Below, one piece after another: positions 36,249 through 49,563 of a DNA stretch of 64,000 nt. Source of the stretch: an uncultured Prevotellaceae bacterium (lineage in GTDB: Bacteria; Bacteroidota; Bacteroidia; Bacteroidales; Bacteroidaceae); contig CAMHUI010000007.1 of assembly GCA_946188345.1 (NCBI GenBank), positions 1 through 64,000 of the forward strand. Reading direction: 5' to 3'. The notes beneath the pieces are model-generated. The model saw only the letters and a list, made by a program, of their open reading frames with translations, was not told where the DNA came from and did not search any database. Within the stretch, counting starts at the first letter, position 1, and each line of letters begins with the position of its first letter. A program made the position numbers and the translations under genes.

Positions 36249-36284
36249 AAAAGCCTGCATCCCTCTGCAAGAGTGCAGGCTTTT
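36249..36284. terminator. Bidirectional hairpin terminator between the FadL gene and the C1A-protease operon
   Basis: AAAAGCCTGCA-tccctctgcaagag-TGCAGGCTTTT. Confidence 0.8.
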
Positions 36285-36303: not shown

Positions 36304-39300
36304 TTATCTGAACATTGTGATGTTGTCGACGGGCATGTATTCAATCTGTATCTCCTGAATACGGAACGGATTGCCCGTCTGGCCGAAGCTGAGGCTTCCG
36401 GAGCTGTTGCGTCGGCAGAGGCTTTCCCATTCCTGCGTGTTCTCCTGCGTAATGTTACGGACGAAGAAGTTCTTTTGTGTCGGCAGGCTGTTGAACTCCT
36501 GTAGGAAAGGCTCTGAATAGTTGTCCAGCTGTTGCACCAGATGATTCAGGTCGCCTTGGCTCTGGGCTTTCAGGAAGTAGTAGCGTTGCAGTCCGGCCAC
36601 GTGGTCGTAGATATTGAAGTCTCTGACGGCAGCAGCCAGTTGTACGAGGACTTTCTGCTTCAACTTGTTCTTGAAGTTGAAAATCTTCTCGTCATTAATC
36701 TCGTATTCTCCGTGCAGGCATTCATAGAGCCTGATGTCGCGGGTGAGCTCTTCCTTGTGCTGCTCGAAGTAGGCATCAAGTGTGGCGTTGTCGAGCACGG
36801 TCAGGAAGGGCACGTGTTCGTCTGGCCTCATGTCGTTGATACTGGCATTCTCTTCTTCGTACCAGACAGCAAGGTTGTTGATGTAGGAGCGCATGGAGTT
36901 GCGCAGGGCATAGAGATTCGTGCTCAGGTTGGCCAGTCCGTCGATAACCATTCCTGCTACAAAGGAACGTATCTTCAGCCTGGCGTGCTGCTTCTCTACT
37001 TCTCCCAGCCGGCGGCTCAGCGATTGTATCTCTTCGTCAAGCAGCTGTTCTAGTTTGCGACGCTTCGACAGCCGTTGTTGGTGATAGACAATGAATGTCA
37101 GCACGGCGCAGGCGATGGCGCCGACCGCATAGTAGGTGGCTTTCATGAAGGCTTCCATGTCTATCAGCATGCTCACCCACGACCAGTTGAAGCGAACGTA
37201 GGTGAAGAGGGCGTAGATTAAGACGAGTGCGCCTCCTGAGAGCAGCATCCTACCTTTCGTCTGCGTTGTCAAGGCATCGAACTCAGAGAGTCTTTCACCC
37301 TTTGTCGATATAATCCGGTTTCTGCGGCGGCGCAGTTCTTCGGCCTGTGCTCTGTATTGCAAGGCTGCCTCATCGGTGATTCTTTCGCGTACGGAGGGAT
37401 CTTCCAGCGTCTGCAGCAGCTGTTCGTACTGGGTATATACCTTATTGTATATGCCAGCTAGTCGCGACTGGACTTTCCTCTTCGAAGCTATCATGTTCGA
37501 GATAATCGTCATGCGGATGTTGAGGTCGGCCGTATCGAGCGAGACACGATGGCGGCCTTTTACGCCGTTGACTTGGATGGTGTTGTCGTTGACCTCTGTG
37601 ATGATGCAGGCATAATGGCATAAGTCGGCATCACACATATAGGCATAAGGCACATAGCAGTAGCCCTTCCTGCCAAACGTCTCGCCCCAGGAATTGCGAA
37701 CGAGGAACAGTTCGTTGGCATCGTCGTATCCGCAGATGACCATGGCATGCAGGTCCCTGCTGTCGTTGGCAAGGTCGTCGTCGGTAGGCATGGGCACAAG
37801 TCCGTTGTTGCCTTGCAGGTGGAAGAAGGGTTCGAAGAGACGGAGGGCAATGATGACGGGATAACCCTCTGCAATGGCAGAGCGCAGCAGGTCACGGTTC
37901 TTCTCAATATCGTTGCCCAGCCTGACGTTCATGGCTGTCTTAATCTTGCGCAGCTCTGCATCGCGGTAGGCTTCTTCCGTCGGACGGATGTTATAGTCGG
38001 TCTCTGAATAGGGGCACATTTCTTCCGTGCAGATGCCTTTGGCATGGACGCTGCGGATGACATCCGTGATGGCAGAACCTTCCGAGTCGAGCCGGTTGTG
38101 CTCCTCGCGGACGTTGTAGTAGATGAAGCGCTCGCTCAGGTCATAGTCGGTGCGGTCGTTTTTCTTCATGATATACTCAAAGACCGACGACACGGCGAAG
38201 GTCGTGCAAGATCCTACACCTCCCTGGTTCTTCACGGGTGTGAACTCATGCGACAAGTCAATGTTGGCTTCTTGCGTTGGCTTGGGTACGTAGTCTTCGT
38301 CGAAGGGGTCCTCGGTGATACCCTCGTCAATGAGCTTGAACTTGCGGAAGTCATCGCCCACAATAACCTCTTCCGTCATCCGGTTTTGTTGCCTGGTGGT
38401 GTCAAGCTGGTTGAGTTGCTCGGTCTTCTGCCGGATGTATTCCGAGGCCTGCCGAATCTCAATGCGCAGTCGCTTGATTTCGTCAGTGGGAAGGAAAATC
38501 TTACCGTCCTGGCCTTGGGGGATGGTGATGATGCCAGACTCAATGATGGGAATGTCGGTGTCGGGATCGTTGACAACATCGCCATTCTCGTCTTTCTTGA
38601 AGACCAGCATATTGTTGTTGTAGTTCAGGAAGTAATCAACGGGCTCTCGGAAGAGGTCGATGAAGGTGGGCTGCTCCTTGTCGTAGAGGTTTCCGGAAAG
38701 CGAGTCTTCATCCATGACCAGTACCTGTGCCAAGACGGCAAACTTCTCGGGCAGCGACATGTCTGGCTTGTTGATATATCCCGTGATGACATTCTCCAGC
38801 TCGCTCATGAACGTGTCGAACTCCGGACGCAGTGAGGGGATGATGTCCTCGGCACTTTTACCCTTGTCAAGCTCAGGCTGAACATAGCGGTTGTAGAAGT
38901 CCGTCATGATGTTCTGTCTTCCTTTCAGCACATCCGTGGCCATGCTGGCAGCCTTGTTGATGTCGACATCTCGCTGAGCCACCTTTTCCCGTTCCATCAT
39001 CCACAGGTAGGCATGATGAAGCAGGTAATGCTGGAAGTAGTATCTGTCCATCGACAGACACGACACGCCGATGCCGACAATCTTGTCGTCATTGTCGTCT
39101 TGGAGGACTAAGTTGGGATTGTATAACTGGCGATAGTTCTCGATGCAAGCCATGGCATACTCACCAATCATGCGGGTGAAGGTTTCGAAATCGAGGTTTA
39201 GGCTTGCTCCGTGCTTGTTGCGGTTTTGGAATAAGACAATCTGCAGCTTGCTCTGGCTTTGCTTGCGGAGGCTGAGCAATTCCGTAACTTGCTTTTTGGC

Positions 39301-39837
39301 CGATTGATGATAGGAGTCGAGTGATTTGTCGAGTTCCTGCAGGAATGACTCGTCTTCGGCGAATACCTTGTAAAGGTCAGGAGCGGGAAGCAGAAGTTCA
39401 ATGTCGTATCTCGCAGTCTCGTTGTCAATGATGCTGACGATATGCGCGGCTTGTTCCTTGAGCTTTTCATCAGCCGAAGGGAATACGATGGAAACCAAAA
39501 GGTTTTCGCTTGCCCCCTCGGTACCTACGACCACATGGTTGTCATGCCAGTCGCGGAAGAACGCTTTTATCTGTTCGTCGCGGCGGTCGTTGGTAAGAGT
39601 CGTCAAGGGTTCCTCTCCGACCTGATACAGGTAGTCTTCGCTCGGATAGAACTTGCTTTCGTCGGCAGGCTGGTGTTCTAAGCTGTTGATGACTACTCCT
39701 TCATCCGTTTCCAACCATTCGAGTGCACGGAAATGCTGGCGCACGTCCTCGGTGCCATGCTTCAAGATATGACGCATGACACCTTTGGCCGTACTTCCCA
39801 GGTCCGCACCCAGGAAGATATAAAGACTATGTTTCAT
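36304..39837 (-). CDS. 1177-aa multidomain membrane protein with papain-like (C1A) cysteine-peptidase domain
   Basis: FTPVKNQGGVGSCTTFAVSSVFEYI (Gln, Cys544), SRDLHAMVICGYDD (His697), LFLVRNSWGETFGRKGYCYVPY (Asn715); no signal peptide; two hydrophobic segments (LLSGGALVLIYALFTYVRF, ATYYAVGAIACAVLTFIVY) after the protease domain. Confidence 0.85.
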   Translation of the reverse strand: MKHSLYIFLGADLGSTAKGVMRHILKHGTEDVRQHFRALEWLETDEGVVINSLEHQPADESKFYPSEDYLYQVGEEPLTTLTNDRRDEQIKAFFRDWHDNHVVVGTEGASENLLVSIVFPSADEKLKEQAAHIVSIIDNETARYDIELLLPAPDLYKVFAEDESFLQELDKSLDSYHQSAKKQVTELLSLRKQSQSKLQIVLFQNRNKHGASLNLDFETFTRMIGEYAMACIENYRQLYNPNLVLQDDNDDKIVGIGVSCLSMDRYYFQHYLLHHAYLWMMEREKVAQRDVDINKAASMATDVLKGRQNIMTDFYNRYVQPELDKGKSAEDIIPSLRPEFDTFMSELENVITGYINKPDMSLPEKFAVLAQVLVMDEDSLSGNLYDKEQPTFIDLFREPVDYFLNYNNNMLVFKKDENGDVVNDPDTDIPIIESGIITIPQGQDGKIFLPTDEIKRLRIEIRQASEYIRQKTEQLNQLDTTRQQNRMTEEVIVGDDFRKFKLIDEGITEDPFDEDYVPKPTQEANIDLSHEFTPVKNQGGVGSCTTFAVSSVFEYIMKKNDRTDYDLSERFIYYNVREEHNRLDSEGSAITDVIRSVHAKGICTEEMCPYSETDYNIRPTEEAYRDAELRKIKTAMNVRLGNDIEKNRDLLRSAIAEGYPVIIALRLFEPFFHLQGNNGLVPMPTDDDLANDSRDLHAMVICGYDDANELFLVRNSWGETFGRKGYCYVPYAYMCDADLCHYACIITEVNDNTIQVNGVKGRHRVSLDTADLNIRMTIISNMIASKRKVQSRLAGIYNKVYTQYEQLLQTLEDPSVRERITDEAALQYRAQAEELRRRRNRIISTKGERLSEFDALTTQTKGRMLLSGGALVLIYALFTYVRFNWSWVSMLIDMEAFMKATYYAVGAIACAVLTFIVYHQQRLSKRRKLEQLLDEEIQSLSRRLGEVEKQHARLKIRSFVAGMVIDGLANLSTNLYALRNSMRSYINNLAVWYEEENASINDMRPDEHVPFLTVLDNATLDAYFEQHKEELTRDIRLYECLHGEYEINDEKIFNFKNKLKQKVLVQLAAAVRDFNIYDHVAGLQRYYFLKAQSQGDLNHLVQQLDNYSEPFLQEFNSLPTQKNFFVRNITQENTQEWESLCRRNSSGSLSFGQTGNPFRIQEIQIEYMPVDNITMFR

Positions 39838-39840
39838 AGG

Positions 39841-42618
39841 CTACTCCAACATTCTGACTATGTAGTCTACTTCCTCGGTAATCTGCTTGTTGATATTCTC
39901 GTATCCGGCGTTGTTCAGGGTTTCGCGTCTGAGGTTGATTTGTGAAACGTTGTCATAGTAGAAGTCGACGTCTCTTACCTGTTGAAGTTTCTCTTGATAT
40001 TGGTCGTCTCCAATCTTACTGATGCGTTTCTGCAGTTCCTCGACGAAGGCACGGTGGATGTCTTCATTCATCATCTTCTGCTTGAACAGGGCAAAGGCCG
40101 TGGCACGGTCGCCTGACTTTGGGTGGTCAAGGTCTACCCAATAGCCCTGCAGGGCTCTGGAGCTTTCGTTGAAGTCTTGGTATTGATAGCGTCCCTTCTC
40201 GTTGCGGATGAGATTGAAGATAAAACCTTTTATCCACAACTGCAGGGCGTCGCTGGCGGCTTCCGTGGGATAGAGGCTCCAGCCTTCGCGATTCATGCGG
40301 GCTTCGATGATGCAGTCGAAGTGGACATCCCATTTCGACTTTTCGGCAGCCTCCTTGTAAGAGTTCAGCTCCAACAGTGTGCAGGGAGGGATGGTTCCTA
40401 TCTGGCGGTAGAGGATGACGGAGGTCTTCGAGCCGATGTTGCAGAAGCTTGGTCGGTCGGCCGCATCGAGATGGCGGCGCATGATGTCTGGCGTGAGGAC
40501 GGAATGGTCTTTGTCGTAGACACCGACATAGAAGAAGTTCTGTGCCGTTACATTGGGGAATTTGCCGAGGTGTTGATAGTCGAAGTTCAGGAGCGGTTCC
40601 GATTTTCTGACGGCGCGGTCCAGCATGCGGTCGAGTGCAGCCTCGTCCATATCGTGCATGACGTTCTCGATGGTCTTCTCGCACCATTCCTTGGCACCGG
40701 CAAGATTGTTGGTGTAGCTGAGGAAGATTTGTTGCAGTTCTGCTTCCTTCTTGGTCGACATGTTGAAGATGTCGGCCTGCTGGAGGAAGTAGGATACAAG
40801 ACTTTCCTCTTCACTGACCTTCACCTTGTCTATAAACTCCTTGGTGAGGTCAATCTGAAAGATTTGTTCGCCAGCCTCAATGCCGTGTCTGCGCTTGGCA
40901 ATGTCGTTCTCCAGCTTCTTGTGGAAGTCGATGAGGCGGTGCTCGATGTCGTTCACCTTCTGCAGATAGTCAGCCAACATCTCCTTTAGTCCGCTATAGA
41001 AGTTGATGGCAGCTTCTCGGCGGGCTTTCTCGCGGAGGTTGACGGCCAGGTTGCGGGCAGCTCCGGCCACGGCTTCCTTATATTCTTCCGTGCGGCTTTT
41101 GCCGAAGAAGGGCTTCTTGTAGGTGGCCAAGACGCTGATGGCAGCTTTCAGTGAGCCTTCCAGCATCTCGGTGCGGTCTTGCTCGTGTTTCAGTTCTTCA
41201 TGCATCTCATCGTCGCAGAGCTCAATCTGCGCGAGGATGGCAGTCAGGATGTTCTCGGTGTCTTTGACACCTCCGGGCTGGTTCAGGTGAGACTTGACGA
41301 AGGCATCAAGGTCTAGGCCTACCTTCTCGCTCAGTTCCCTCACCTTTGCAGGATAGTTGCGGATGTCGTCAGCCTCTCTGGCCACTCTTCTGAGCCATCC
41401 CTCTACTTCGTCGGTGGGAGCCTCGGTCGACATAATCTCAGGCATGGTCTGGCGTGGCATCTTCGGCAACATATAGTCGATGACCTGGTCGTGATGCTCG
41501 TTTTCACGAATCTCCATCTTGTTGATCCAGTTTGTGGCCACGTCAGTAGCATCAGCCTTGGCAGCCAGCAGGTTGTTGATGATTCTCTGAGCGGCTTTCA
41601 TGCTGTAGAGAGCACCCAGCGCCTGGCTGTTGACGGTGATTTCGCAGACACCCAGTCCTGATGCCCAGGCTTGCTTGCCGTCAACGTCCATGTCGCCGCT
41701 GTCTACCTGCTTCATGATATTGTCCAGCGTACTGGCGTTGGCAACAGATACTTCACCCGCAGCAGCTACCAATGAAAGGCTGAGCATCTGGCTGATCTGG
41801 TCAACCTTGGTCAGCGTGTCGCCGTTGTTGTTCTTGTTGTCTATCAGCATGAACGCATCAAACGGACGCACGTTCGTGCTCCAGTGGTCTTTCATGTTGG
41901 CAATGTCGAAGGGTGCGCGGTCCAGGTCGCCATACATCAGGTAGTCGAGGTCTTTCAATGCGCCATAGGCGTTGGCTCTCACATTCGGCATCTTCAGTTC
42001 GTCCATGGCGATGAATACGCCGGGCAGCACGCCATAGCCCACGAGTTTGGGCTGGGGAACCGTCGTGAGGTTCTTCTTGATGAGGTAGGCAACGCTCAGG
42101 AATGTGCCGCAACCTGTTCCGCCGCACAGCGAGAATACCATGTGGATTTCAGGAGTAGCATTGCTCAGCAGCGAATACTTCTCGTTGTCCACATGCTCCA
42201 TGCGACGAATCTGATGCAACTTCTCATTGATGCTGGTCAGCACCTCCTTATGGTTGCACCAGAAGGCAAACCGGCCATTGCTTCTTATTTGTCCGGCACC
42301 GGTCTTCATTCCGTTCAGACCTCGGCTGTTGCGCTCTTTTGGAAACCAGGCCAAGTCGTCGGGGTTCTTCTGATAGAGCGGGCGAGGGTCTCCTACGAGG
42401 ATGGCGCGCTGCTCGTCGGGAGCCAGCTTGGTGCGCTCGCCATTCTTCAAAAGCACTTCTTTGTCGTATTCGCCACCATCGGTATCAATGCCCAGAAAGG
42501 CAATCATCGGCGGTACCTCTCCATAGGTGTCAAGGTACATCTTCTTAGTGTTAAGAATCGCGTTCATACCGGTTCCACCTAAACCGATATACAAGCAAGG
42601 TCTGATTTTTGTAGTCAT
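39841..42618 (-). CDS. Tubulin/FtsZ-superfamily-like protein (large 'Tubulin-like' family)
   Basis: 925 aa; N-term PCLYIGLGGTGMNAILNTKKMYLDTYGEVPPMIAFLGIDTDGG; tubulin signature HMVFSLCGGTGCGTFLSVAYLIKKNL (residues 166-171 GGTGCG). Confidence 0.85.
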   Translation of the reverse strand: MTTKIRPCLYIGLGGTGMNAILNTKKMYLDTYGEVPPMIAFLGIDTDGGEYDKEVLLKNGERTKLAPDEQRAILVGDPRPLYQKNPDDLAWFPKERNSRGLNGMKTGAGQIRSNGRFAFWCNHKEVLTSINEKLHQIRRMEHVDNEKYSLLSNATPEIHMVFSLCGGTGCGTFLSVAYLIKKNLTTVPQPKLVGYGVLPGVFIAMDELKMPNVRANAYGALKDLDYLMYGDLDRAPFDIANMKDHWSTNVRPFDAFMLIDNKNNNGDTLTKVDQISQMLSLSLVAAAGEVSVANASTLDNIMKQVDSGDMDVDGKQAWASGLGVCEITVNSQALGALYSMKAAQRIINNLLAAKADATDVATNWINKMEIRENEHHDQVIDYMLPKMPRQTMPEIMSTEAPTDEVEGWLRRVAREADDIRNYPAKVRELSEKVGLDLDAFVKSHLNQPGGVKDTENILTAILAQIELCDDEMHEELKHEQDRTEMLEGSLKAAISVLATYKKPFFGKSRTEEYKEAVAGAARNLAVNLREKARREAAINFYSGLKEMLADYLQKVNDIEHRLIDFHKKLENDIAKRRHGIEAGEQIFQIDLTKEFIDKVKVSEEESLVSYFLQQADIFNMSTKKEAELQQIFLSYTNNLAGAKEWCEKTIENVMHDMDEAALDRMLDRAVRKSEPLLNFDYQHLGKFPNVTAQNFFYVGVYDKDHSVLTPDIMRRHLDAADRPSFCNIGSKTSVILYRQIGTIPPCTLLELNSYKEAAEKSKWDVHFDCIIEARMNREGWSLYPTEAASDALQLWIKGFIFNLIRNEKGRYQYQDFNESSRALQGYWVDLDHPKSGDRATAFALFKQKMMNEDIHRAFVEELQKRISKIGDDQYQEKLQQVRDVDFYYDNVSQINLRRETLNNAGYENINKQITEEVDYIVRMLE

Positions 42619-42667
42619 AGGTTGTTATATTTTTTTGTTATTTTTTTTACTGTTACTTAGCGAGTTT

Positions 42668-44407
42668 CTAATTGACGCTGAGCACTAACTTCATGTTGCT
42701 GTTGTCCACACTTTCTATTGTCACCTCTTCGCCCACCTTGCAGGTGAAGTTGTCGACAAAGAATTTCTGCCCGGCGGCAATGTGGATTCCTCTGTCGCAG
42801 GGGGTGATGACAATCGGGGCCACCCAGCGCTCGTTCACCTCATAGCACACCGGACCGAGGAAGAGCTTATTCAGGGCGCTCTGTTCCTGTTTCTTGTTGC
42901 AAAGGATGATTTCCCGGTATCCCTTCGCCTTGACGTTCTGGTAATAGGATGGGTCTTTCTTGTCTTCCAGAGTCAGATAGCGCACTCCCTTGAAGCATGG
43001 GTAGCTCAGCCGTTTCAGCAGGCACATCCACAGGATGAGCAAGCCCAGCAGGATGACGAGGAGCCAGAACAGGATGGTGGCCAGCGGATTCCAGCCAGTG
43101 CTGTATCTGGCCTCCACGTTCAGGTCGAAGTCTTCGGGTGCCGACTGGTTGATGCGGTCAATCTCAAAGTTCTTTATGGGCTTGACCGTGAAATGATGCT
43201 TGCCGGTCTGGGCATTCTTGGCAAAGACCACTTGCATCACGGTCTGTCCGTTCGACTGCTCGTCGATGGTAAAGGTCTTGTCGGCACATTCCTTTCCGTT
43301 AAATAATAAGGTATAATCTGAGGGCTGTATGTCGGCCTCTACTTTCATCGTGGCCGACGAGTGTGCCCTGACGGCATCCTCGTTAAGTGTAGCCTTGAGG
43401 TCGAAGGCCAGCGTGTCGATGTTGCGCTCGCCCCAGAAGAGGAAGCTGGAATAGTAGCTGGCCTTGCCCATCTTGCCGCCACCCTCCACCTCGGTGTTGA
43501 TGACGCGTTCGGGCTTGTTCTGTACCAGCACCTCTATCTCAGGCTGGTTGATGGTGTAGTCTTGGCGGGGAGTCTTCACGGTGAAGGTGAAGCGATAGTC
43601 CGCCGCATGGTCGATAGCCTCATTGAAGTCTTCGAGCGGAACCTTCGGCACTACGGTGAAGTCTGCCACGCTACCGGCCAGGATTTTTTCCTCCTTCACG
43701 ACAACATCGAAGTATTTGTCATCAACGGCAACCTCCAAGGGCAGACCCTCCGGGGCGTCGGAGTGCAGGCGAACGGCCTTCTCCAGCTCGCGGGTGTTGA
43801 CGGTCATCTCATGCTTGTCGAAGCTCATGAAGTGGTTGTGCACCGACCCGATGATGTTGAAGTTGCAGCTGTTGCGGATGGCCTGCTCAATCTCAGGCTT
43901 GTGGGCATCCTTATAGAGTTCCACGAAGTAGGCCTGCGAGTCCTTGAAGCGTCCGCACCATTCGGCAATGCGTTTGCAGACGGCGGGTGTCTTCTCCACG
44001 TTGTCCTCGCCGTCGGTCATCAGGTAGACATAGTTATATCGGCTGTCGTCAACATATTTCATGGCTTCGTCCCATGCGGCACAGATATTCGTGTTGGTCA
44101 CGTTCTGCGCATGGCTCCTGACGTTTTTCTCGATGTCGTCCCACTTCTTCTGGCTGAATTCGTCGGCATCAAACTGATATACCTTCAGGGGCTTGCCCTG
44201 GAAGAGTACGATGGTGATGTCGCCGTTTGCGCGTCCCTCGAGGTCGTCGTGCAGATAGTCGAGTGTGGAGTCAAGGATGTTGTTGAATATCATTGACTTG
44301 GTGCAGTCGAAGATATAGATGAAGTTGCTGCGCTTCACCTGTGACTGGGCAAACAGAGTGGTTGTGGAAAGAAGAACGGCCAATATGAAGCCAAGGAATC
44401 GTCTCAT
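42668..44407 (-). CDS. vWA-domain protein with signal peptide, C-terminal TM and cytosolic tail
   Basis: 579 aa; MRRFLGFILAVLLSTTTLFAQ; NFIYIFDCTKSMIFNNILDSTLDYL (MIDAS-like), TNICAAWDEAMKYV, YVYLMTDGEDNVEKT; TM NPLATILFWLLVILLGLLILWMCLL. Confidence 0.85.
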   Translation of the reverse strand: MRRFLGFILAVLLSTTTLFAQSQVKRSNFIYIFDCTKSMIFNNILDSTLDYLHDDLEGRANGDITIVLFQGKPLKVYQFDADEFSQKKWDDIEKNVRSHAQNVTNTNICAAWDEAMKYVDDSRYNYVYLMTDGEDNVEKTPAVCKRIAEWCGRFKDSQAYFVELYKDAHKPEIEQAIRNSCNFNIIGSVHNHFMSFDKHEMTVNTRELEKAVRLHSDAPEGLPLEVAVDDKYFDVVVKEEKILAGSVADFTVVPKVPLEDFNEAIDHAADYRFTFTVKTPRQDYTINQPEIEVLVQNKPERVINTEVEGGGKMGKASYYSSFLFWGERNIDTLAFDLKATLNEDAVRAHSSATMKVEADIQPSDYTLLFNGKECADKTFTIDEQSNGQTVMQVVFAKNAQTGKHHFTVKPIKNFEIDRINQSAPEDFDLNVEARYSTGWNPLATILFWLLVILLGLLILWMCLLKRLSYPCFKGVRYLTLEDKKDPSYYQNVKAKGYREIILCNKKQEQSALNKLFLGPVCYEVNERWVAPIVITPCDRGIHIAAGQKFFVDNFTCKVGEEVTIESVDNSNMKLVLSVN

Positions 44408-44456
44408 AGTTTTTTATTGATATAGGTGTTGCGTTTATAGAATAAGATAACGACTG

Positions 44457-44464
44457 CAAAGATA
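44457..44464 (-). promoter_or_regulatory. Bacteroidota-type -7 element (TATCTTTG) for the vWA/tubulin-like/C1A operon
   Basis: caaagata on + strand 50 bp upstream of the vWA start codon. Confidence 0.55.
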
Positions 44465-48520: not shown

Positions 48521-49366
48521 TTATTGGCGTACTTCGATGACGCAGTCGTGTGGCTGGCGGGCAAACTTGTCGTAGGTGACGCGTCCGATGACATCAGCCA
48601 CGATGTGTCCGCTGATGGGGTTTTTGATTTCCGTAATGGCCCCGCGGATGTCGGCCTCGACGTAGGAGTCTTCGAAGGCTCGGTCGCAGGCGGCATCGAA
48701 GGTGCAGTTCTCGAGCACGAGGTCGCGCACGTAGCAGAGGGGCTGCTCGCCGGCGATGTGGCAGTTGACGAGTCGGACGCCCTTCGAGTGCCACGCCAGG
48801 TACTCGCCGTCGATGACGGAGTCGTAGATGACGACGTTCTCGCACTCCCAGAAGGAGTCCTTCGTCGTGATGCGGGCATTGTGAACCTCGACGTTCTTGC
48901 AGTACTGGAAGACATACTTCGAGTCGCTCTCGAGGCCGTCGACGTAGACGTTCTCGCAGTACATGAAGGGATAGGTGCCGTCGTGCAGACGGACGTTCTT
49001 GATGCGCAGGTCGCGGATGTTCCAGAAGGTTTCGTCGGCGTCGTTGATGGTGACGTTTTCGAGGGTCAGTCCCTGCATCTCGCGGAAGAGCTTGGGTGCG
49101 TCGATGACGGTGTCGCGCATGGTCATGTTGTTGGAATACCAGATGGCCGAGCGTGAGCCCACCTCGAAGTAGCAGTTGGTGAGGAGCGAGCCGTCGACGT
49201 GCCACCAGGGGTATTTCCCGATGAAGCGGCAGTGGTCGGCCTCGATGTTGCGGCACATCTTGATGCCTGATTCGCCCTCGGTGATCGTGACGTTCTCGAG
49301 TCGGGTGTCGTGCATCCCGAAGAGGGGGCGTTCCCCTCCGAATGATTTATCTTTAATGAGTTCCAT
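48521..49366 (-). CDS. DUF3737 family protein (right-handed beta-helix-like)
   Basis: MELIKDKSFGGERPLFGMHDTRLENVTITEGESGIK...; repeated hydrophobic/N-x pattern typical of a beta-helix. Confidence 0.85.
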   Translation of the reverse strand: MELIKDKSFGGERPLFGMHDTRLENVTITEGESGIKMCRNIEADHCRFIGKYPWWHVDGSLLTNCYFEVGSRSAIWYSNNMTMRDTVIDAPKLFREMQGLTLENVTINDADETFWNIRDLRIKNVRLHDGTYPFMYCENVYVDGLESDSKYVFQYCKNVEVHNARITTKDSFWECENVVIYDSVIDGEYLAWHSKGVRLVNCHIAGEQPLCYVRDLVLENCTFDAACDRAFEDSYVEADIRGAITEIKNPISGHIVADVIGRVTYDKFARQPHDCVIEVRQ

Positions 49367-49391
49367 AGTCTGTAATGGGTCTTTTGCTTTG

Positions 49392-49399
49392 CAAAGGTA
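49392..49399 (-). promoter_or_regulatory. Bacteroidota-type -7 element (TACCTTTG) upstream of the DUF3737 gene
   Basis: caaaggta on + strand 26 bp upstream of start. Confidence 0.5.
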
Positions 49400-49563
49400 C
49401 AAAGAAAAAGGCGTTTTGGTATTAAACGCAACCAACGTTTACGTTTTTTTATGTTTTTCGGCCGGTGGGAAATGAGAAATGAGAAAAAAGAATGAGGAAT
49501 GAGGATTGTCGGACGGTTTGCGCCAACATATTCCTCATTCCTCAATTCTTATGCCTCTTTCAA

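Follow-up and report, generated by a model that had tools for sequence, protein, structure and literature searches.

A tubulin-vWA operon of Bacteroidota whose protease-bearing third protein is probably a second tubulin-like subunit

What does a bacterium do with an operon in which a tubulin-superfamily gene lies between a gene for a von Willebrand factor A (vWA) membrane protein and a gene for a membrane protein with a papain-like protease domain? We analysed such an operon in a 64,000-nucleotide stretch of an uncultured Prevotellaceae bacterium (assembly GCA_946188345.1, contig CAMHUI010000007.1, positions 1 to 64,000; hereafter the window). The window comes from contig 7 of an assembly of 1.96 Mb, 57% complete; among named organisms its closest relatives are Prevotella of the rumen and gut. 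Three minus-strand open reading frames (ORFs) at 44407-42668 (579 aa), 42618-39841 (925 aa) and 39837-36304 (1177 aa) were confirmed, with gaps of 49 bp between the vWA and tubulin genes and 3 bp between the tubulin and third genes, exactly as an initial annotation of the letters had described them. The middle protein, TUB, has a predicted tubulin fold, and the third protein is very probably its paralogue, stripped of the GTP motif and carrying the protease as an insert; the tubulin-like nature of this non-protease part had escaped the initial annotation. We propose, with a probability of roughly 45%, that the three proteins form an envelope-to-cytosol signalling machine in which a periplasmic vWA receptor and a GTP-dependent assembly of two tubulin-like proteins control a membrane-anchored cytosolic protease. 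The architecture on which this proposal draws (domains, predicted folds, topology, active sites and linkage) is well supported, and its parts are as follows.

42668-44407, minus strand: vWA gene, with signal peptide, predicted periplasmic vWA domain, one transmembrane helix (residues 445-463) and cytosolic tail (ORF, topology prediction, family matches)
43019-43075, minus strand: predicted transmembrane helix of the vWA protein (hydropathy 2.99, then LKRL)
39841-42618, minus strand: tubulin-superfamily gene (FtsZl1/Tubulin_2), TUB, 925 aa (Pfam, AlphaFold2, Foldseek)
41578-42594, minus strand: Tubulin_2 domain of TUB with GLGGTG and GGTGCGT loops (Pfam, sequence)
36304-39837, minus strand: third gene, 1177 aa, encoding a probable tubulin-like scaffold lacking the GTP motif, with a papain-like insert and a transmembrane hairpin in a long coiled coil
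38938-39837, minus strand: probable N-terminal tubulin-like domain of the third protein, residues 1-300 (hhalign, secondary structure in register)
37588-38292, minus strand: papain-like C1A protease domain, about residues 516-750 (PF00112, likeness to xylellain, conserved catalytic residues)
38206-38208, minus strand: catalytic Cys544 (alignment; kept in 57 of 58 homologues)
37747-37749, minus strand: catalytic His697 (kept in 58 of 58)
37693-37695, minus strand: catalytic Asn715 (kept in 58 of 58)
37084-37245, minus strand: predicted transmembrane hairpin of the third protein (flank and loop charge; protease and both flanks predicted cytosolic)
36307-36831, minus strand: C-terminal domain of the third protein, homologous to the C-terminal domain of TUB (hhalign)

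TUB belongs to the FtsZl1 branch of the tubulin superfamily, known since 2010 (PMC2875224), and matches Pfam Tubulin_2 (PF13809) with E=7.6e-50. Its AlphaFold2 model, built on an alignment of 57 relatives, has a mean predicted local distance difference test score (pLDDT) of 89, and the leading Foldseek matches of this model in the PDB are CetZ, tubulins and TubZ. Because model and matches agree we accept the tubulin fold, which the initial annotation had expected of the 925-aa protein. The GTP-binding motif GGTGxG is present in all 57 TUB homologues, and TUB is an active-looking GTP-binding subunit. In the model the tubulin domain is followed by an extended coiled coil (helices 450-499 and 510-582) and a C-terminal region of mixed alpha/beta structure.

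The third protein matches Peptidase_C1 (PF00112) over residues 531-731 (E=4.9e-18), and the closest solved relative of its protease domain is xylellain (PDB 3ois, E=1.2e-48), with which structure comparison agrees. The Gln-Cys-His-Asn active site of C1A proteases is present in a papain fold; its fourth member, Gln538, is kept in 58 of 58 homologues. Xylellain, with the same fold and catalytic residues, stands alone, whereas here the domain is inserted in a membrane-anchored, probably tubulin-like protein. Two transmembrane helices (residues 865-883 and 900-918) form a hairpin inside the long coiled coil, and across 41 homologues lysine and arginine make up 0.268 of the hairpin flanks versus 0.038 of the loop. 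Since these residues are concentrated in the flanks and scarce in the loop, the protease is predicted to be cytosolic and membrane anchored. The initial annotation was right about the C1A motif set and the two membrane helices; it fell short in treating the product as simply a protease membrane protein, given that the scaffold itself appears to be tubulin-like.

The evidence for paralogy comes largely through intermediates. The ignavibacterial third protein (locus L128) has a Pfam Tubulin_2 match of its own (E=1.5e-9) and aligns collinearly with its partner TUB from residue 1 (E=1.2e-7). Third proteins of the branch that it shares with calpain-bearing forms are, judging by such alignments, near certain to be tubulin-like paralogues, and the C1A scaffold matches this branch with E=1.7e-6 in its N-terminal part and E=8e-11 in its C-terminal part. 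An hhalign comparison of the N-terminal domain with the same branch gave E=9.5e-4 (reversed control, 0.12), and a direct match between the C1A scaffold and the C-terminal domain of TUB, which is clear of the coiled coil, has E=2.2e-5 versus 0.029 for its reversed control. Over the region where the N-terminal domain aligns with TUB, the helices and strands of the two AlphaFold2 models are in register. Scoring hhalign with secondary structure brought no gain in N-domain score; the elements stayed in register over 175 columns, and the reversed control did not align. We found no direct similarity between the third protein and the vWA family, nor across reversed profiles. The GGTGxG motif occurs in none of the 58 C1A third proteins versus all 57 partner TUBs.

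The hydrolase in this third slot changes from lineage to lineage. In Fibrobacter, the third proteins align with the C1A scaffold on both sides of the protease at 100% hhalign probability, and the protease itself is neatly absent. In Chitinophagales they have calpain instead (E=5.5e-21 and 1.4e-21), and the ignavibacterial protein is the calpain version minus the calpain, its residues 1-169 and 176-1041 corresponding to 1-167 and 460-1350. In another Prevotella form a transglutaminase core lies at the C-terminus (E=6e-18 and 1.7e-9), and Bacteroidales relatives of this form have the N-terminal region in common and the transglutaminase domain absent. Calpain interrupts the tubulin-like domain directly past the segment equivalent to TUB 204; the papain domain comes after the tubulin-like and helical parts and ahead of the coiled coil. 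These different insertion sites indicate separate acquisitions. On a TUB tree made by a quick method, with some weak branches, the calpain-bearing rows group in a single clade and the Fibrobacter rows, which lack the protease, lie among papain rows, for which reason we consider that papain was probably lost in the Fibrobacter lineage. With the insert absent or replaced by other hydrolases in some lineages, papain is best described as the commonest filling of the slot.

Other partners of Tubulin_2 proteins were examined as candidate fillings and set aside. In the same genus, another FtsZl1 subfamily (L018:257-11887) comprises a 1176-aa Tubulin_2 protein, a PDZ-like protein and a protein of 1230 aa with a weak match to a BSP-type metallopeptidase; the metallopeptidase and PDZ-like genes have no detectable homology to the C1A scaffold. 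A separate conserved pair in several Bacteroidota (L027, L028, L029 and L180; for example, L028:5924-10965) joins a Tubulin_2-like protein of about 530-540 aa to a downstream partner, about 1140-1170 aa long, that has no Pfam match, and these partners also lack scaffold homology.

The window's vWA protein has no Pfam vWA match by itself. Of 30 members of its family, 13 match VWA_2 (Pfam VWA_2/VWA), and a profile of the family finds solved vWA structures at E=1e-10. The residues of its metal ion-dependent adhesion site (MIDAS) are D34, T36, S38, T106 and D132; of these, D34, S38, T106 and D132 are invariant across the 30 sequences. From a signal peptide before the domain and a single transmembrane helix after it we predict that the domain faces the periplasm and that a tail of some 115 residues lies in the cytosol; the signal peptide, C-terminal helix and tail given in the initial annotation agree with this topology prediction, and the family profile bears out the vWA assignment. 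For the adhesive role that it offered as one option for the domain we found no evidence.

To what extent do the three genes belong together? We scanned one genome per species over 85,462 species and obtained 80 loci, in Bacteroidota, Fibrobacterota and Ignavibacteriota, one of which (L075) belongs to the cultured Bacteroides sp. 519; because the scan patterns were derived from the query family, the linkage figures apply to that subfamily. A vWA gene lies upstream in all 77 loci with room for one (as a fused single gene in 39, as two genes in 30, partial in 5 and recovered by tblastn in 3, where a long antisense ORF had been picked in its place). Directly downstream of TUB, 60 of the 74 loci with room have a C1A protein, with gaps of at most 113 bp (median, 10.5 bp); the remaining slots hold related scaffolds with calpain or transglutaminase domains or with no hydrolase. 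Among 100 relatives, a Tubulin_2 protein above the cut-off is found in 9 and the complete trio in 4, and the four full-length C1A proteins in this set all adjoin a tubulin gene. The sole full-length C1A match in 393 Bacteroidales is that of the window, other matches being papain domains alone. Consistent linkage, as the initial annotation expected, is thus what the neighbourhood survey finds. Its further suggestion, a Bacteroidota variant with a papain-like membrane protein as core partner, fits these 60 loci but is not general to FtsZl1 in that phylum: the other Tubulin_2 subfamilies sampled in Bacteroidota have no recognisable homologue of the third protein.

The operon is accessory. It is inserted between priA (PriA) and an outer-membrane-protein gene (OMP_b-brl), two genes that abut in congeners (ends at most 60 bp apart in 10 of 29, including the three that carry the operon elsewhere), and its GC content is 51-54% versus about 57% in the surroundings. 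Flanking genes are highly varied across loci, with 329 neighbour ORFs falling into 281 families. An exported family of DNA/RNA non-specific endonucleases (Endonuclease_NS) recurs in eight loci, directly behind the C1A gene in six (L060, L065, L071, L080, L086 and L107), with one gene between in L078 and at a distance of 215 bp in L082, and an Ion_trans-type channel family recurs in three loci. Two Fibrobacter operons with a protease-less third protein are followed by a conserved gene pair (L085:14386-18532 and L090:7756-12166), with Fib_succ_major in L085 and Ion_trans in both. One locus (L051:3101-7096) has a gene with a TIR domain and 26 Sel1 repeats just upstream of the operon. In the window itself, a DUF3737 protein (48521-49435, E=7e-120) lies between aminotransferase and lactate/malate dehydrogenase-like genes. 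Two putative regulatory elements border the operon.

44457-44464, minus strand: TATCTTTG, a -7 promoter box of Bacteroidota type, lying 50 bp before the vWA start (sequence)
36251-36283, no strand assigned: bidirectional terminator hairpin, common to the operon and the convergent outer-membrane-protein gene

Both had been located correctly by the initial annotation. The TANNTTTG motif class is enriched in the window (27 copies versus 14.1 +/- 3.5 in shuffles), and TATCTTTG is a candidate operon promoter, though a single box by itself is no proof. For the 3' hairpin, folding of the two strands gives z of -2.7 and -3.0.

Pairing of tubulin-superfamily and vWA genes is already known. Makarova and Koonin (2010) described FtsZl1/vWA operons and proposed membrane remodelling for them (PMC2875224), and the present operon is of this type, with a predicted tubulin fold, N-terminal tubulin-like GTP domain, coiled coil, adjacent vWA gene and patchy distribution, as the initial annotation had proposed. 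It differs from those operons, in which according to that text P-loop GTPase, kinase or OmpA partners are frequent though not universal: none lies beside the window operon and none is recurrent among 144 neighbours. It differs also in its probable second tubulin-like paralogue, which lacks the GTP motif and bears a cysteine protease; the main text of PMC2875224 makes no mention of a protease. Its logic also resembles that of the tubulin-vWA systems for which Kaur et al. (2020; PMC7159879), in the parts of that paper covered here, proposed a part in biological conflicts, as they did for peptidase-NucA systems. In the Firmicutes form of their GAP1-N2 GTPase-centric systems, two tubulin-coiled-coil genes occur with vWA genes, one vWA being extracellular, and assembly near the membrane is envisaged; by analogy only, TUB and the third protein may be the counterpart of that pair. 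Unlike in GAP1-N2 systems, no DO-GTPase, GAP1 or GASH was found beside the window operon and no GTPase family is recurrent among neighbours, and those parts of PMC7159879 report no tubulin-fused protease. Peptidase-NucA System 3, from the same source, likewise joins peptidases to Endonuclease_NS, as about a tenth of the relatives do here, but its peptidases are of trypsin type; ours is papain-like, the window has no such nuclease, and where present the nuclease is exported and the protease predicted cytosolic. Co-production of two superfamily paralogues, of which one keeps its GTP motif, recalls eukaryotic alpha/beta-tubulin and other paired tubulins; unlike in alpha/beta-tubulin, the putative second subunit here lacks GGTGxG and has a protease and a transmembrane hairpin.

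How might such a machine work? The vWA protein would display its metal-binding domain in the periplasm and sense a ligand or strain, and the signal would cross the membrane through the single vWA helix to the cytosolic tail. The tail would engage a complex of the two tubulin-superfamily paralogues, GTP-binding TUB and the third protein without the GTP motif, whose GTP-dependent co-assembly would cluster or free the protease, which might then cut cytosolic or membrane substrates. We infer sensing, contact between TUB and the third protein, polymerisation, the direction of signalling and activation of the protease by assembly from this architecture. A more specific version is tentative and somewhat doubtful: within a two-subunit tubulin assembly, the subunit lacking the GTP motif would have turned carrier of separately acquired papain-, calpain- and transglutaminase-fold domains, giving a filament-gated protease under a transmembrane vWA receptor. 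Its logic would be comparable to inflammasome or apoptosome activation, but tubulin-built. The biological role is most likely surveillance or conflict, a reaction to phage, toxin or envelope damage, to which the accessory distribution and the changing hydrolases incline us.

Several results weigh against this proposal. Contact among the three proteins is argued from linkage and paralogy only, and the direct comparison of the third protein's N-terminal domain with the tubulin domain of TUB is weak by itself (E=0.013; reversed control, 0.14). Third proteins of Fibrobacter, Ignavibacteria, four Bacteroidales and Myroides have no recognisable hydrolase, so proteolysis is dispensable to the scaffold. 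An extra effector gene is absent in most loci, and the recurrent fourth gene, Endonuclease_NS, is exported and so would act in a different compartment from the cytosolic protease. PADLOC found no recurrent defence family among the 144 neighbours, where families were seen once or twice, and there is therefore no defence-island signal; because this run had no matched control, its result is weak negative evidence. On the three operon proteins PADLOC gave one chance-level match only.

Three rival explanations were weighed. In the first, the operon is a membrane-remodelling or vesicle machine, with a filament bending or scaffolding the inner membrane through the vWA and third proteins and proteolysis trimming or recycling the complex. 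It would accord with the published context inference for FtsZl1 (PMC2875224), with two of three components being membrane proteins and with long coiled coils in both tubulin-like ones. No component has a known membrane-bending function, however; presence of Tubulin_2 and of the trio in so few of the 100 relatives would be unexpected of a role in shape or vesicles, and repeated swapping of the hydrolase is not predicted. We consider it unlikely, and the remodelling role taken up in the initial annotation was itself a published guess. In the second, the system is strictly abortive, the vWA protein sensing infection or envelope damage and GTP-dependent assembly leading to lethal proteolysis as an anti-phage or toxin response. 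The patchy accessory distribution, differing genomic sites and swapped hydrolases would fit, as would the exported Endonuclease_NS, the Ion_trans family and the TIR-Sel1 gene, and analogous systems are predicted in the covered parts of PMC7159879; against it stand the PADLOC result, with its lack of a control, and our failure to find plasmid or phage carriers of the full system, only partial, distant Tubulin_2 matches having been obtained. It too seems improbable. A third possibility, that the third protein is a mere membrane-anchored housekeeping protease resembling tubulin through coiled coils and Rossmann-like topology, draws on the weak N-domain comparison and on whole-model Foldseek, in which only papain-like proteins are among the matches listed (the protease dominates the model), but is very unlikely beside a C-terminal match that does not involve the coiled coil and is a thousand-fold stronger than its reversed control, a strong homology chain through the L128 and calpain proteins, and a scaffold that persists without the protease.

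In the literature searched we found no tubulin-protease system, no experimental study of FtsZl1 function and, with the 2010 paper (PMC2875224) covered in its main text, no tubulin-like paralogue lacking the GTP motif and carrying a papain, calpain or transglutaminase domain. The conserved three-gene form, with a catalytic output on the second subunit, makes FtsZl1 function directly testable. Should assembly indeed control the protease, as in the signalling machine proposed here, the operon would extend proximity-activated proteolysis to a system based on tubulin. It would also be one more instance of tubulin duplication in which one copy gave up GTP binding and took on a different function.

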